64,000 bases of DNA. It comes from Microcoleus sp. CAWBG506 (GTDB taxonomy: Bacteria; Cyanobacteriota; Cyanobacteriia; Cyanobacteriales; Microcoleaceae). Within the stretch, counting starts at the first letter, position 1. Each line of letters opens with the position of its first letter. The translations under genes and the position numbers were made by a program. Below the pieces are notes generated by a model. It was not told the DNA's origin, did not search any database, and worked only from the letters and a program-made list of their open reading frames with translations. Location: NCBI GenBank assembly GCA_020883125.1, contig JAHREW010000003.1, positions 186,001 to 250,000 on the forward strand, given 5' to 3'. Below, piece by piece: positions 1,671 to 6,546 of this stretch.

Positions 1671-1731
1671 ACAGTTCCTAGACTAAAGTCACGAATTATA
1701 ACTTGAATGAACCACGAGAGGATATTCAAAG

Positions 1732-2802
1732 ATGATAGACGAGAACCATTGTAAGTTTACTGATGAGGAGGTTGCTAATGCTGAGGTACAGATTTTTGAA
1801 CACACAAAGAGAATTGAGTTCTATCTGACGGAATATTCCATTGAGCTTCTGGCCCAAAAGATGCAGAATGGAGATTTCGAGATTCCGGCCTACCAGCGCG
1901 AGTTCACATGGGAACCAGAGCGCAAATCCCGGTTCATTGAGTCGGTATTGATGGGGCTTCCGATCCCTTTCCTCTTCTTTTGGGAAAGCCCGTCAACAGG
2001 TAAGCTTGAAATTGTTGATGGTTCACAGCGCCTTAGAACGATTGAGGAGTTCGTTCTTGGGGACTTTCCCCTAGGTGACTTGGCAGAACTGTCGCTACTG
2101 ACCGGATTTCGGTTCAAAGATCTCCCCGAATCTCGGCAACGAAAAATCAAGAACCGTTCCATTAGGGGGATCGTGCTCAATGAACACGCCGATGAGCAAG
2201 CACGATTTGATCTTTTCGATCGAATTAACACAGGAAGCAAGGTCGCGAACAAGGCTGAGGTGCGTCGAGGTGCGTTAGGAGGTGCTTTCCTGGATCTTGT
2301 GATTTCACTCGCCAAACAGCCCACCTTTGTCAAACTTGCGCCAATATCTGACAAGCTTTTATTGGAGCGTGAGAGAGAAGAGCTCGTTACACGATTCTTC
2401 GCCTACGGTGATGGGCTAGAAGCATATAAAGACAGAGTGTCGCCATTTCTTTTCACCTACACGAAGAAAATGAACGATCGCTTTAAACAGAACCCAGCAG
2501 AAATTGAGTCCTATCGGCAACGCTTCATGGACATGATACACTTTGTCTCGCGCAACTTCCCGTCGGGTTTCCGCAAAACACCTAAAGGTAAGGCTACACC
2601 CCGATCGCGTTTTGAAGCTATAGCCATTGGAAGCTATCTGGCACTTCAGCAACGGCCTGAGATAGCTAACCAATCGATCAAAGTTGAAGAATGGTTGAAC
2701 AGCAAGGACTTTACAAAAGTGACCGGCGCCGACGGTGCGAACGCAATAGGCAGACTCAGGGCTCGTATACATTTCGTTCGCGATCGTTTACTTGGAGATT
2801 GA
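1732..2802 (+). CDS. DUF262 domain protein (ParB/GmrS-like), first gene of a defence-like cassette
   Basis: A 356-residue protein with a clear DUF262 N-terminal domain. IPAYQREFTW lies at residues 51-60, the signature VDGSQRLRT near 95-103 corresponds to the DGQQR motif, and DRINTGSKVANKAEVRRG follows. DUF262 is a ParB/sulfiredoxin-fold NTP-binding domain, best known from the type IV restriction enzyme GmrSD. The C-terminal half shows no HNH (DUF1524) motif, so the nuclease half of GmrSD is missing. A GAGAGGA sequence 11-12 bases upstream supports the ATG. Its stop is two bases before the HEPN gene start, and that gene overlaps the methyltransferase, so the three are almost certainly one operon. 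My inference is that DUF262 supplies sensing or NTP hydrolysis for that system. Confidence 0.85.
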   Translation: MIDENHCKFTDEEVANAEVQIFEHTKRIEFYLTEYSIELLAQKMQNGDFEIPAYQREFTWEPERKSRFIESVLMGLPIPFLFFWESPSTGKLEIVDGSQRLRTIEEFVLGDFPLGDLAELSLLTGFRFKDLPESRQRKIKNRSIRGIVLNEHADEQARFDLFDRINTGSKVANKAEVRRGALGGAFLDLVISLAKQPTFVKLAPISDKLLLEREREELVTRFFAYGDGLEAYKDRVSPFLFTYTKKMNDRFKQNPAEIESYRQRFMDMIHFVSRNFPSGFRKTPKGKATPRSRFEAIAIGSYLALQQRPEIANQSIKVEEWLNSKDFTKVTGADGANAIGRLRARIHFVRDRLLGD

Positions 2803-2804
2803 GG

Positions 2805-3530
2805 ATGGAGGATTTGAGCCAAGCTTTTGAAGAGCGTTTACAGGAAATCGAAACTTACCTTGACCTGCTTGAGTCAATACAGGAACAAGTGCAGGGAGGA
2901 TCTCCACAAATCGGGGAAGCTACGATCACTCCGCAACATCAGAAAATCCTCTATTCGAGTGTTTACTTACAGCTCTACAATCTTGTCGAATCAACTATTA
3001 CTCGGTGCGTAGATGCCGTATCTAGAGCAGTGGTTAATAATAGCTGGCAGCCCAATGAGTTGTCCATTGAGTTGCGCCGCGAGTGGGTGCGATGCACCGC
3101 ACGCACCCATACTGATCTCAACTACGATAATCGCCTGGAATCTGCATTGAACCTCTGCGATCACCTAGTGCAAGCGCTCCCCATATCAACTTTAAAAGTT
3201 GATATGGGTGGGGGTGGTAGTTGGGATGATGAGGAGATTTACAAACTTAGTAAACGTCTAGGATTGTCCTTAAATATAAGTCGTCAGGCTAATCGTGCTG
3301 TCAAACAACATTTTCGGGATGAGCAAGGGGCACTTTCCCTGATCAAAAGTTTTCGGAACAAACTAGCACACGGTAATCTATCATTTGCAGAGAGTGGCAA
3401 TAATATTACTGTTAGCCAGCTTCGTGACCTCACTGAACGAACAGCATTGTATCTGAGAGAGGTTGTAAATTGCTTCAAGTTATCGATCGATGCACATGAG
3501 TTCCTAATGCCGGAGAACCGACCTAGATGA
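2805..3530 (+). CDS. HEPN nuclease-like protein (MAE_28990/MAE_18760 type)
   Basis: A 241-residue protein. Residues 48-72 (KILYSSVYLQLYNLVESTI) and the C-terminal motif SFRNKLAHGNLSF fit the MAE_28990/MAE_18760 group of HEPN proteins. The R-x4-H signature is Arg184 to His189 (RNKLAH), the usual HEPN ribonuclease motif, so the site looks intact. I chose the ATG at 2805 because it follows the DUF262 stop by two bases and has GGAG seven bases upstream; an in-frame start further up would lie inside the DUF262 gene. The 3' end overlaps the methyltransferase start by four bases (ATGA). HEPN proteins of this kind are usually toxins or effectors in anti-phage systems. Target and trigger are unknown. 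Confidence 0.8.
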   Translation: MEDLSQAFEERLQEIETYLDLLESIQEQVQGGSPQIGEATITPQHQKILYSSVYLQLYNLVESTITRCVDAVSRAVVNNSWQPNELSIELRREWVRCTARTHTDLNYDNRLESALNLCDHLVQALPISTLKVDMGGGGSWDDEEIYKLSKRLGLSLNISRQANRAVKQHFRDEQGALSLIKSFRNKLAHGNLSFAESGNNITVSQLRDLTERTALYLREVVNCFKLSIDAHEFLMPENRPR

Positions 3531-4648
3531 GCCAAGGCATGAATCCAGATGAGACTATGGTCGGCGCTCACAGTGGCAAAGAGCCTCAGCTCGATCGCAG
3601 AAGTACAGCCATTAACTGCATCGATTTGTTTTGCGGTTTGGGTGGTCTTACGCATGGACTGATCAAAGGAGGTATTCAGGTTATTGCGGGCATCGACATC
3701 GATCCACAATGCGGCTTCCCATACGAGAGCAACAACGACGCCCTTTTCGTCCAGCAGGATGTCAGCTCGCTATCTGGTTCCCAACTTGCAGATATTTTTG
3801 GCGATGGGACATTGCGTTTGCTGGCCGGCTGCGCGCCCTGCCAACCATTCTCGACTTACAGCCGTAAGGGACGCCAGGAACGCCAGGACACTAAGTGGGT
3901 TCTCGTATCCGACTTCGGTAGGTTGGTACGGGAGACTCAACCCGACTTCGTAACGATGGAGAATGTGCCACAGCTTTTAGAGCATGAAGTTTTCAAGGAT
4001 TTTTTGAAGGACCTCGAAGGCTATTCGATCAGTTGGAGCATTGTAGATTGTGTTCAATATGGAGTTCCACAGACTCGTAAACGGCTTGTGCTGCTAGCGT
4101 CCCGATTCGGGCCAGTAGAATTAGTACCTCCAATCTTTTCTAGACGATCCTGCACAACTGTGCGTGAGGCCATTTCCCATCTACCCGCCTTAGCAGCCGG
4201 ATGCTCCGATCCAAATGACGCACTTCATACCGCATCCTCACTAAGTGACCTGAACCTCCGCCGAATCAGAGCCTCAAAACCCGGAGGCACATGGCATGAC
4301 TGGGATGCTTCACTGCTGGCACCATGTCATCGTAAGAAATCCGGACAAACTTATGCTAGCGTGTATGGTCGTATGAAGTGGGACGCCCCGGCTCCAACGA
4401 TCACAACCCAATGCTTCGGCTACGGAAATGGTCGGTTCGGACATCCGGAACAGGATCGTGCAATCTCTCTAAGAGAGGCCGCTATCCTTCAGACTTTTCC
4501 AGAAAACTACCGCTTCCTAGCTCCTGGCGAGCGTGTCTGTTTCAGCAAACTGGGTCGTTTAATCGGAAACGCTGTTCCTGTCCAAATTGGCGAGGTGGTA
4601 GCGCAGAGCCTACTCGCTCATGTACAGAAGTACGATCGGTTAAAGTAA
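3527..4648 (+). CDS. DNA (cytosine-5-)-methyltransferase
   Basis: A 373-residue C5 methyltransferase. Motif I is CIDLFCGLGGL (residues 31-41, SAM binding). Motif IV is GCAPCQPFS with catalytic Cys105, motif VI is MENVPQL (144-150), motif VIII is QTRKRLVLL (182-190), and IGNAVPVQIG near the end is motif X. All ten-motif landmarks appear intact, with a modest region after motif VIII for target recognition, so the enzyme should be active; its site cannot be read from sequence. The start overlaps the HEPN stop (ATGA), implying translational coupling. In this cassette the likely job is to mark self DNA, or to give the modification state that DUF262 or HEPN reads; this is inferred from context. Confidence 0.93.
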   Translation: MSQGMNPDETMVGAHSGKEPQLDRRSTAINCIDLFCGLGGLTHGLIKGGIQVIAGIDIDPQCGFPYESNNDALFVQQDVSSLSGSQLADIFGDGTLRLLAGCAPCQPFSTYSRKGRQERQDTKWVLVSDFGRLVRETQPDFVTMENVPQLLEHEVFKDFLKDLEGYSISWSIVDCVQYGVPQTRKRLVLLASRFGPVELVPPIFSRRSCTTVREAISHLPALAAGCSDPNDALHTASSLSDLNLRRIRASKPGGTWHDWDASLLAPCHRKKSGQTYASVYGRMKWDAPAPTITTQCFGYGNGRFGHPEQDRAISLREAAILQTFPENYRFLAPGERVCFSKLGRLIGNAVPVQIGEVVAQSLLAHVQKYDRLK

Positions 4649-4692
4649 AAATGCAAAATTAAAAGTTAGTTAACTTTTAATTTTGCATTTTT
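4647..4692. terminator. Long perfect inverted repeat between convergent genes
   Basis: A perfect 22-base-pair inverted repeat with a two-base loop (GT) starts within the methyltransferase stop codon. Its arms begin AAAAATGC and end GCATTTTT, so T-runs follow the stem in both directions. It lies between the methyltransferase (+) and the convergent gene at 4730-5974 (-), which fits a bidirectional terminator. Confidence 0.75.
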
Positions 4693-4729
4693 AGTCCTAT
4701 CTTTATATTCTATTAATCAACATATTGTG

Positions 4730-5974
4730 TTAATCAACCTCAATAGGCTTAGGTTTCTTCACCGGCTTAGGAAGGGTTTCCTTACGAGCAGGGGGCGCTC
4801 CGGCTGAGGGCTTGATGTTAGGACGCCCTACAGGAGCGCCATCACCACTGGGTCTAGGAGTATATGGACGTTTATTTCCGCCGCCTCGGAAGCCGGCGGG
4901 TTTTTCGCCAGGGGGGAATTTCCGCTTTTTGATCGGCAGTGCCCCAATATTATTAGCCTGCTGAATTATGAGATTGTCAGCCTGTAACTTGACATGGAAA
5001 TCCCAAAAAAATCCGATCGCCTTTGTGGCTAAATCCCCTTGAAGTTTCAACTTAAAAAACTTCATCTTGTCGTCATTCTTGCGGGGAGCTTGCTTAATTT
5101 TGACGATCACATACTTTTCTCGATCGTGAGATTGATAGATAACCTCACCTCTAATCGAAAAATAGCCATCTTCAACATTAGGTTCAGACTCTGGGAGAGA
5201 GGGGATGGAGGAGGTTAAACTGCTCTCAAATTCCCCGGAAACTGGACTTTCCTCATCTGAGGAAATTTCCGAAGGTTTTTTGAGTGTTTCAGGTTCCCAG
5301 ACTCCCATAATCTGGGCGTGTAAGTTACCATCTTCTTGCCTGGTACGGGGATAGACCACCCACAGGTGTTCTTGTTCCAAATCCAAGTGATTTTTGACTA
5401 AACTCATGACTCTACCCAGCAAAACCGCGTCTATGGCAGTTCCGTCAGCAGCGATGAGCATACCCCGCGTGAAATGTTCTTCAGATTGGGTGTAGCGGCC
5501 CCGGACCAAACCAACAGCTCGGTACTGTCTGGGTTCGCTGGGGGGGGGAATCGGATGTTGGCGCATGACTGCGGGTATGTCATCGGTGGCTGAACCGTCC
5601 GGCTCAGCAGAGTCTGGTGTGACTGTGGGCGAGACAGAGACTGCTGGAGTATGGCTGCTAGATGGAGATGGGGGTGCTGGCTCTGAGAGTGCGGGAGCAT
5701 CCCTAGGTGGGTCTTTTGGCTTTGCTTCCTCCTTGGGGGGAGAAGTGTAGCGTGGTCGTTGCAGGGTGTCCTTGGATGCTGGGGCATCTGTTGGCGTTGG
5801 CGGTTGATTTTGGTCAACCGGTGCTGCCAACAGATCTGGCTGCGGACTTTCCTCTGGTGTCTCAGGAACGGAAACTGTATCTTTGGGCGGATTGACGGCC
5901 AGTTCGCGAGGCTGAGCCTTGCGAGTTGAAGTAGATTTGGGCGATTTAGAAGAGCGGTTTGGAGAGGGGTTCAT
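4730..5974 (-). CDS. Proline/serine-rich protein of unknown function
   Basis: A 414-residue protein I do not recognise by name. The ATG at 5974 (MNPSPNRSSKSP) was chosen because AAGGAG sits five bases upstream; an ATG at 5998 is possible but has no such site. Residues 1-140 are low complexity, rich in Pro, Ser, Thr and Glu. A folded region of about 90 residues (YRAVGLVRGRYTQSEEHFTR onward) follows. A second folded region (YFSIRGEVIYQSHDREKYVI onward) lies near residues 275-345, and a basic tail rich in Lys, Arg, Gly and Pro ends the protein. The folded parts resemble a conserved cyanobacterial hypothetical family. The basic tail could bind nucleic acid, but this is only a guess. It stands alone and converges on the methyltransferase. 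Confidence 0.75.
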   Translation of the reverse strand: MNPSPNRSSKSPKSTSTRKAQPRELAVNPPKDTVSVPETPEESPQPDLLAAPVDQNQPPTPTDAPASKDTLQRPRYTSPPKEEAKPKDPPRDAPALSEPAPPSPSSSHTPAVSVSPTVTPDSAEPDGSATDDIPAVMRQHPIPPPSEPRQYRAVGLVRGRYTQSEEHFTRGMLIAADGTAIDAVLLGRVMSLVKNHLDLEQEHLWVVYPRTRQEDGNLHAQIMGVWEPETLKKPSEISSDEESPVSGEFESSLTSSIPSLPESEPNVEDGYFSIRGEVIYQSHDREKYVIVKIKQAPRKNDDKMKFFKLKLQGDLATKAIGFFWDFHVKLQADNLIIQQANNIGALPIKKRKFPPGEKPAGFRGGGNKRPYTPRPSGDGAPVGRPNIKPSAGAPPARKETLPKPVKKPKPIEVD

Positions 5975-6546
5975 AAAAACTCCTTGCAGCGGAGACACAT
6001 CCCTTGAGGGAAATTAAGGAATAAACTGAAGAAACTGCTTTCAAAACTACTAGCACCTGACAGGCGAGCACAGGGCTCCCAGGTCTGGTTGTGACCCATC
6101 AACCCCAACTTGCAATGGGAGTTCGAGTGTCGAGGGGTCCGTTGGCTGCTAAAATCCTTGTTGGCAAAGACTTTGGGAGTTGCTGACCGATCGTCAGTTC
6201 GATCGCCCTGTGGTTGGAGTTGCTGGCTAATAGAATTTAGGATATTCAGCTTGCCTATTTTACTTAATCCAATTACCGAACGTGCTGATCCGCCATATTT
6301 TTGGTAATTTTTAGCTAGACCAGACTAAATTGGACCGACGGCACAATCCTTGGGGCTGCGGGTCTGAGTGTCCAAAATTGTTTAGCTAGCATGAAGTTGT
6401 GGGTCTGTTACCATATTAGCTGCAAGCAAAAGGTTGCTTGGTCACAGTTGGGCCCTAAAATTAAAAACCTGATGGACTTGGCTTAGGCAGCAGGTGATGC
6501 CTTCAATCTCCGAAAATAGTAAATTTTAAGCTGAACAAGTTGAATT
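5975..6546. other. 572-base intergenic region between divergent genes
   Basis: This separates the minus-strand proline-rich gene from the plus-strand TPR gene and should hold both promoters. I see no tRNA, no credible coding frame and no large inverted repeat. Short frames here lack homology and ribosome-binding sites. Confidence 0.5.

Follow-up and report, generated by a model that had tools for sequence, protein, structure and literature searches.

Restriction-modification is understood as the marking of DNA coupled to the cutting of DNA. Among the described systems closest to the locus examined here, the DUF262 enzymes GmrSD, BrxU and SspE carry a DUF1524 HNH nuclease, either in the same chain or as GmrD, and the relevant passages of the source assign cleavage or nicking to DUF1524 (PMC10952713). 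Menshen, in those passages, pairs a DUF262 gene with a predicted OLD nuclease (PMC10952713). PD-T4-2 is a tested anti-phage system of DUF262 plus HEPN, the deletion of which in the native strain raises T4 plaquing, according to its report (Vassallo et al. 2022, PMC9519451); the family given for its HEPN is PF18735 (PMC10952713). Table 1 of a 2013 survey places the MAE_28990 family of HEPN proteins "in operon with a ParB nuclease and DNA methylase genes", and the survey lists R-x4-H as conserved in this family and suggests that where HEPN families are linked to restriction-modification they back it up as a second defence line, much as PrrC does (Anantharaman et al. 2013, PMC3710099). Lastly, Type IV CoCoNuTs are restriction-type machines; by the passages describing them, those of Types II and III-A typically contain no nuclease that can be recognised other than HEPN RNases. 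Here we analysed a 64,000-nucleotide stretch of Microcoleus sp. CAWBG506 (assembly GCA_020883125.1, contig JAHREW010000003.1, positions 186,001 to 250,000), referred to as the window, in which an original prediction made from sequence alone had singled out a cassette of DUF262, HEPN and C5-cytosine methyltransferase genes as a candidate defence system. Our results uphold this proposal as regards a conserved mobile trio, defence-type parts and a dedicated methylase, while its further reading, with HEPN as the sole effector and the mark sparing the host, is reasonable but putative. We tentatively read the cassette, at close to an even chance, as a small mobile defence unit that resembles restriction-modification in its working and uses HEPN as its effector.

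The linkage of the three genes was assessed by a peptide-pattern scan anchored on HEPN only in the genome_contigs collection (84,980 species by its description). The patterns were derived from close relatives (at least 59% identity), so the linkage figures describe that subfamily. The scan yielded 59 loci with HEPN identities of 31-89%, and DUF262 lies beside HEPN in all 59, with an incomplete or broken frame in three (L013, L021 and L060). A methylase is near HEPN in 58 of the 59 loci, separated by a ~1.3 kb insertion in L005, and the lone locus without it (L059) also holds the most distant HEPN of the set. In the 58 trio loci the methylase comes last in 53 and first in 5. Trio-bearing rows fall in ten phyla, several of which rest on single metagenome bins: Cyanobacteriota, Chloroflexota, Pseudomonadota, Actinomycetota, Planctomycetota, Bacteroidota, Lentisphaerota, Acidobacteriota, Myxococcota and Vulcanimicrobiota. 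Chance neighbourhood is ruled out by the trio's presence in 58 of 59 loci, and the same count answers the worry, raised with the original prediction, that the genes might seldom occur together elsewhere.

Viral contigs gave a similar association, with DUF262 at 21/21 HEPN loci and a C5-methylase profile match at 18/21, convergent in 16 of these 18. Two of the three methylase-less viral loci end at the HEPN gene, and four viral locus pairs resemble near-duplicates in coordinates and scores. A DUF262 search matched 809 plasmid and 43 phage records; among 18 loci chosen for reading from 60 listed DUF262 matches, 12 have a methylase profile match, convergent in 7. Nine Moraxella phage records carry the DUF262 gene, and the one read, Mcat32, holds the whole set with a convergent methylase. 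In Peduovirus P24B2, a P2-like phage, DUF262 and HEPN are accompanied by a methylase that lies on the other strand and is split over two reading frames (L062). The IncX1 plasmid p573-5 (L067) carries DUF262 and a RiboL-PSP-type HEPN, with no methylase match, beside a replication initiation gene. DUF262 matches occur in 491 Escherichia plasmid records, and 608 of the 809 matching plasmid records are typed conjugative, DUF262 being common on enterobacterial plasmids. Two loci hold the DUF262-HEPN pair beside a clearly different C5 methylase: L074, where the profile match reaches only 36 bits and Pfam assigns a different C5 methylase, and the viral L138, with a weak match of 132 bits. Judged by sequence, these two loci suggest methylase exchange.

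Within the window, three intact tandem genes span positions 1732-4648, with a 2-base gap between DUF262 and HEPN and a 4-base overlap between HEPN and the methyltransferase (Table 1). The HEPN start is taken as the ATG at 2805, the mechanical reading frame beginning upstream at 2691. The features named in the original prediction, namely this tandem layout with its spacing and overlap, the HEPN R-x4-H motif, DUF262 without HNH and the methyltransferase motif set, were all borne out by the reading-frame coordinates and the family and alignment results given below. Immediately 3′ of the methylase gene lies an A-T-rich inverted repeat followed by T residues (4647-4695); a terminator scan found no site, and since that scan requires G-C pairs it left this repeat uncalled.

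Table 1. Coordinates of the cassette genes and of the inserted segment in the window
Feature	Position	Strand	Description
DUF262 gene (GmrSD_N, ParB/Srx-like)	1732..2802	+	356 amino acids; predicted NTPase/DNA-sensing part and helical C-terminal half; no HNH domain found
HEPN gene, MAE_28990 family	2805..3530	+	241 amino acids; R184-x4-H189; predicted endoribonuclease effector
C5-cytosine DNA methyltransferase gene	3527..4648	+	373 amino acids
Inserted segment, approximate extent	1678..4737		Between HcyBio gene 492-1670 and reverse-strand gene 4730-5998

The HEPN protein was assigned by Pfam to PF18737 HEPN_MAE_28990 (6e-28, 98.9 bits against a cut-off of 26.8), with PF18735 falling below its cut-off (22.7 against 28.4 bits). 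Its motif reads R184-N-K-L-A-H189, and both the arginine and the histidine are retained in 92 of 94 aligned rows, the window included. No PADLOC model matched the protein at E<=0.1, in a library that may lack a model of the second PD-T4-2 protein, and a search for sequence relatives in the PDB gave nothing significant (best E 0.13, unrelated enzymes). HEPN has 1201 relatives at E<=1e-3 and is the fastest-changing of the three proteins, with a mean identity of 0.40 against 0.55 and 0.57 for the others. In one locus (L084:5778-6482) the motif arginine is replaced by K (KNNLAHG), beside a full-length DUF262 and with no methylase match; by its sequence this HEPN is possibly an inactive effector. 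HEPN is the only protein beside DUF262 and the methylase, occupying the place where GmrSD-type enzymes have HNH, and it might on that ground be a DNase, which would make the cassette an ordinary restriction-modification system with an unusual nuclease. We consider this extremely improbable; HEPN is probably an RNase effector.

The DUF262 protein matches PF03235 GmrSD_N (6.8e-26). Its best PADLOC match is NsnA (3.3e-54, residues 18-299), which we take to be Menshen's DUF262 gene, although the literature searched did not confirm this link; PD-T4-2_A scores lower (1.4e-29, over residues 45-346). Structural rows comprise ParB CTPases, BrxU, SspE and DndI, with BrxU as the best structural match. 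No Pfam match to DUF1524 or HNH at E<=0.1 was found in any of the three cassette proteins, and no histidine stands among the DUF262 columns conserved in at least 93% of 60 rows. We also considered an HNH or restriction endonuclease hidden in the C-terminal half and rejected it: of the matches confined to that half, none from Pfam, PADLOC or NCBIfam indicates such a domain, and its VIA rows are either weak matches to helical structures or continuations of the BrxU/DndI alignment. A shorter DUF262 of 169-187 amino acids occurs in 5 of 20 cyanobacterial loci (L080, L088, L092, L096 and L099) and aligns with the full-length protein only up to about residue 174-181, so these variants retain the ParB-fold half and HEPN and lack the helical half. 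One of them is in the genome of the window itself, where contig C18:79644-80306 (L080:7609-8907) encodes a second HEPN, 29% identical, beside a 169-residue DUF262 and with no methylase match. A natural DUF262-HEPN fusion, P0135 (567 amino acids; the one fusion among the 120 rows listed from a joined-query search with 3107 matches), stops before R-x4-H in its HEPN part and may be an assembly artefact; it was given no weight.

These features bear on the model of 2013, in which the ParB-fold DUF262 would be the DNA nuclease and HEPN a suicide RNase that acts only if restriction fails, like PrrC with PrrI. The survey, in the part concerned, describes the partner as a ParB nuclease and puts this model forward for HEPN families linked to restriction-modification (PMC3710099). 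The PADLOC REase_II model PDLC03418 (372 positions) matches residues 52-186 of the window DUF262 at 3.2e-9, and the short variants keep the ParB-fold half together with HEPN. However, neither HNH nor another known nuclease domain was found in the DUF262 protein by Pfam, and the passages cited attribute cleavage or nicking by GmrSD, BrxU and SspE to DUF1524 (PMC10952713). We regard such a two-tier arrangement as distinctly unlikely.

The methyltransferase belongs to PF00145 DNA_methylase (2e-53), and PADLOC returned DrmMII (8.4e-95) and MTase_II (2.9e-84). Its motifs are well preserved across an alignment of 59 rows, some of them incomplete: PCQ at 104-106, of which Cys105 is the cysteine, in 57 rows, ENV at 145-147 in 58, and Q182, R184 and R186 in all 59. 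The stretch 193-305 is where we take the target-recognition domain of C5 methylases to lie. In 69 cassette methylases (L021, L053, L060 and L074 were dropped and L062 was never added) the mean pairwise identity is 0.62 in this stretch and 0.57 in the catalytic part 30-192; the corresponding identities to seven methylases from outside the cassette are 0.39 and 0.35, which gives much the same ratio, and hence the ratio itself is no evidence. The positions are more telling: S250, W256 and G300, among others, are invariant in the 69 cassette methylases and present in none of the seven outsiders. Because of this pattern, the alignment predicts one target site common to the whole cassette group. Solved methylases are relatives too distant for predicting the site itself (best E 8.9e-23, DNMT1). 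The commonest extra neighbour is a Vsr-type gene, its cluster being present in 12 of 101 loci, and the three of the twelve that were checked are all Vsr by Pfam. Vsr is a mismatch endonuclease and the repair partner of C5 methylases, and these neighbours fit with real 5-methylcytosine in vivo. When genes of at least 80 amino acids within 3.5 kb were clustered over the 101 loci, no further core gene emerged: only Vsr is widely shared (two of its 12 loci being Luteimonas loci with an identical block), other families occurring in 3-6 mostly related loci.

Evidence for mobility comes from comparison within the genus, where the upstream HcyBio gene is present in 27 of 29 genomes. We read 15 loci: the cassette follows HcyBio in 3 (that of the window included), the next gene follows directly in 11 and the contig ends in 1. 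At the 11 empty sites, matches to window positions ~1657-1677 and ~4738-4746 lie 24 to 289 bases apart, and the filled and empty sites thus differ by ~3 kb, which is the trio and little else. Records of Leifsonia, Brachybacterium and Janibacter share a 7.03 kb block, cassette included, at an identity of 99.95% or more; the likely cause is recent transfer, or else contamination of one record, that of Leifsonia being a metagenome bin. Cassette relatives are also found on plasmids and phages. Such mobility could also suit an addiction module, with DUF262-HEPN as toxin, the methylase (or DUF262) as antitoxin and phage defence as a secondary role, and both the plasmid and phage relatives and the near-identical block in three genera speak for it. 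On the other side, members of the genus differ in having or lacking the cassette at a single chromosomal site, which suggests that losing it, or never having it, is tolerated, and methylase frames are broken beside whole partners. Broken frames affect DUF262 in L013 and L125, the methylase in L053, L062 and L127, and both in L060, while L005 has an insertion near the HEPN 3′ end; this decay gives a mixed picture with respect to addiction, and the records may hold errors. Overall we find an addiction module highly improbable.

The cyanobacteria showed that the DUF262-HEPN pair is not always tied to the methylase. HEPN matches were found in 24 of 386 genomes, at 28 places, and of the 20 places read all have DUF262 adjacent and five have the methylase. 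Adding the window itself and two places reached through the methylase search (L100 and L102) brings the methylase to 8 of 23 places read, with five further HEPN places outside these 23. Anchoring on the methylase instead, and scoring at most five candidates per genome, gave 16 matches at E<=1e-40 in the 386 genomes. Nine of them, at 48-100% identity, all stand in a trio; for the seven at 40-42% identity, the 7-12 kb read showed neither DUF262 nor HEPN, three lying near contig ends. By sequence, this methylase subfamily looks dedicated to the trio.

Methylase presence is also clustered. On a DUF262 tree of 89 rows it requires 4 changes, compared with a mean of 15.9 in shuffled data, and 0 of 500 shuffles were as low. 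The tree leaves out nine short or broken rows and L100-L102 and scores L074, with its different C5 methylase, as lacking it; it is a quick tree with several long branches, from which only the clustering of methylase presence is drawn. Its groups are 64 rows that all have the methylase, 20 rows of which 8 have it and 12 do not, and five long-branch rows without it. Distances over 70 loci (incomplete and near-identical rows dropped) correlate at r 0.94 for DUF262 and HEPN and at 0.72 and 0.75 with the methylase, shared ancestry alone raising such values. Because the first exceeds the other two, the comparison marks DUF262 and HEPN as the more closely coupled pair within the trio. All three proteins have the same nearest neighbour in only 21 of the 70 loci, and parts may have been exchanged. 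Most likely, a sensing NTPase and a HEPN effector form the core, the methylase having been gained or lost in particular lineages, and the methylase-bearing form should behave like restriction-modification.

How the methylation would be read admits another solution, in which DUF262 bound to the methylated host site keeps HEPN silent or licenses it; when the mark is lost, as when a phage degrades host DNA or the methylase is inhibited, or is misplaced, HEPN would be freed as an abortive-infection RNase. The structural rows to BrxU, SspE and DndI and the single constant methylase site that we predict would suit such a guard. Known DUF262 proteins sense modified DNA, as the passages on them state (PMC10952713), GmrSD, BrxU and SspE being ones that bind it, and DNA with 5-methylcytosine is among the BrxU substrates tested in the portion of the work concerned (PMC12409352). 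The 15 of 20 cyanobacterial DUF262-HEPN loci that lack the methylase, however, imply that a site methylated by this enzyme is not always needed. We think a guard of this kind unlikely, if still deserving of serious thought.

We prefer the restriction-modification-like interpretation because the linkage of the trio is kept through three arrangements (methylase last, first or convergent); because the methylase is dedicated, its target-recognition stretch is conserved and Vsr genes neighbour it; and because the distances of DUF262 and HEPN co-vary, DUF262 plus HEPN is a proven anti-phage pair in PD-T4-2, and relatives reside on plasmids and phages. Its motifs suggest that the methyltransferase would place 5-methylcytosine on a fixed site of host DNA. 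DUF262, from its fold, motif and gene pairing, would be the nucleoside triphosphate (NTP)-binding part of a GmrSD/BrxU/SspE-type enzyme without the HNH part, checking DNA and restraining HEPN. Unmarked DNA of an entering phage or plasmid would then set off NTP turnover and switch HEPN on, and HEPN would cleave RNA, probably of host and phage alike, so that the infection is stopped. That the restriction arm acts on RNA in this manner, with a methylation mark at one site across ten phyla gating the HEPN RNase via the DUF262 NTPase, is a possibility we put somewhat below even. Three points weigh against the interpretation. Known DUF262 enzymes sense or act on modified DNA, by the passages cited, which puts the sign of the methylation readout in doubt (PMC10952713). 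The uncertain role of DUF262 itself is a weak point, as the 2013 survey calls the partner a nuclease and REase_II matches at 3.2e-9. Lastly, the methylase is missing from 15 of the 20 cyanobacterial places.

If the preferred interpretation is true, a DNA mark is read and RNA is cut in answer, so that three small genes would unite restriction with abortive infection. A sharp prediction comes from the near-invariant target-recognition positions: all members of the group should share one site. What DUF262 reads may be approached naturally by comparing lineages that have the methylase with those that lack it, and L074 and L138 are useful for asking whether it reads the methylase site. The HEPN family is large, and its three-gene association has been in print, as a table entry, since 2013, earlier than the author of the original prediction knew.

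Compared with known systems, the cassette resembles type II restriction-modification in having what is by sequence (PF00145, PCQ) a C5 methyltransferase. No proven DNA endonuclease domain was found in it; the REase_II model of PADLOC matches the DUF262 half (3.2e-9), covering only residues 52-186 in a model of 372 positions. With Menshen it has a DUF262 gene in common, presumably through NsnA, and no OLD-type nuclease match was found in the three cassette proteins or the upstream HcyBio protein, the downstream reverse-strand gene not having been scanned. GmrSD, BrxU, SspE and DndI share the DUF262 fold and the DGxQR-type pocket, but GmrSD, BrxU and SspE have a DUF1524 HNH, whereas the cassette, in which no HNH was found, has a separate HEPN protein and an added methylase. 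PrrC-PrrI likewise ties a HEPN RNase to a restriction-modification system, but PrrC brings an ABC NTPase of its own and stands beside a complete type I system, as the survey's passages on it describe (PMC3710099). PD-T4-2 also combines a DUF262 protein with a HEPN domain, and the window DUF262 matches PD-T4-2_A; its HEPN is PF18735 rather than PF18737, and the passages on it mention no methylase (PMC10952713). The operon of 2013 is the same as that of the window in its MAE_28990 HEPN with R-x4-H, ParB-fold partner, which we infer to be of DUF262 type, and DNA methylase; it differs in being a single table row without name, distribution or test in the part of the survey concerned, and in calling the partner a nuclease (PMC3710099). 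The original prediction knew of no characterised system with exactly these three parts. The combination was printed in 2013 (PMC3710099) and DUF262 plus HEPN has been tested as PD-T4-2, but the literature searched, which did not cover preprints outside PubMed Central or most subscription journals, yielded no experimental test of the three-gene form and just two papers that mention DUF262 along with HEPN, and to that extent the statement stands. CoCoNuTs, as far as the passages on them go, embody the same principle as our reading of the cassette with unrelated McrBC parts. Taken together, we class the window cassette with the DUF262-HEPN kind, as an uncharacterised variant that bears a methylase.

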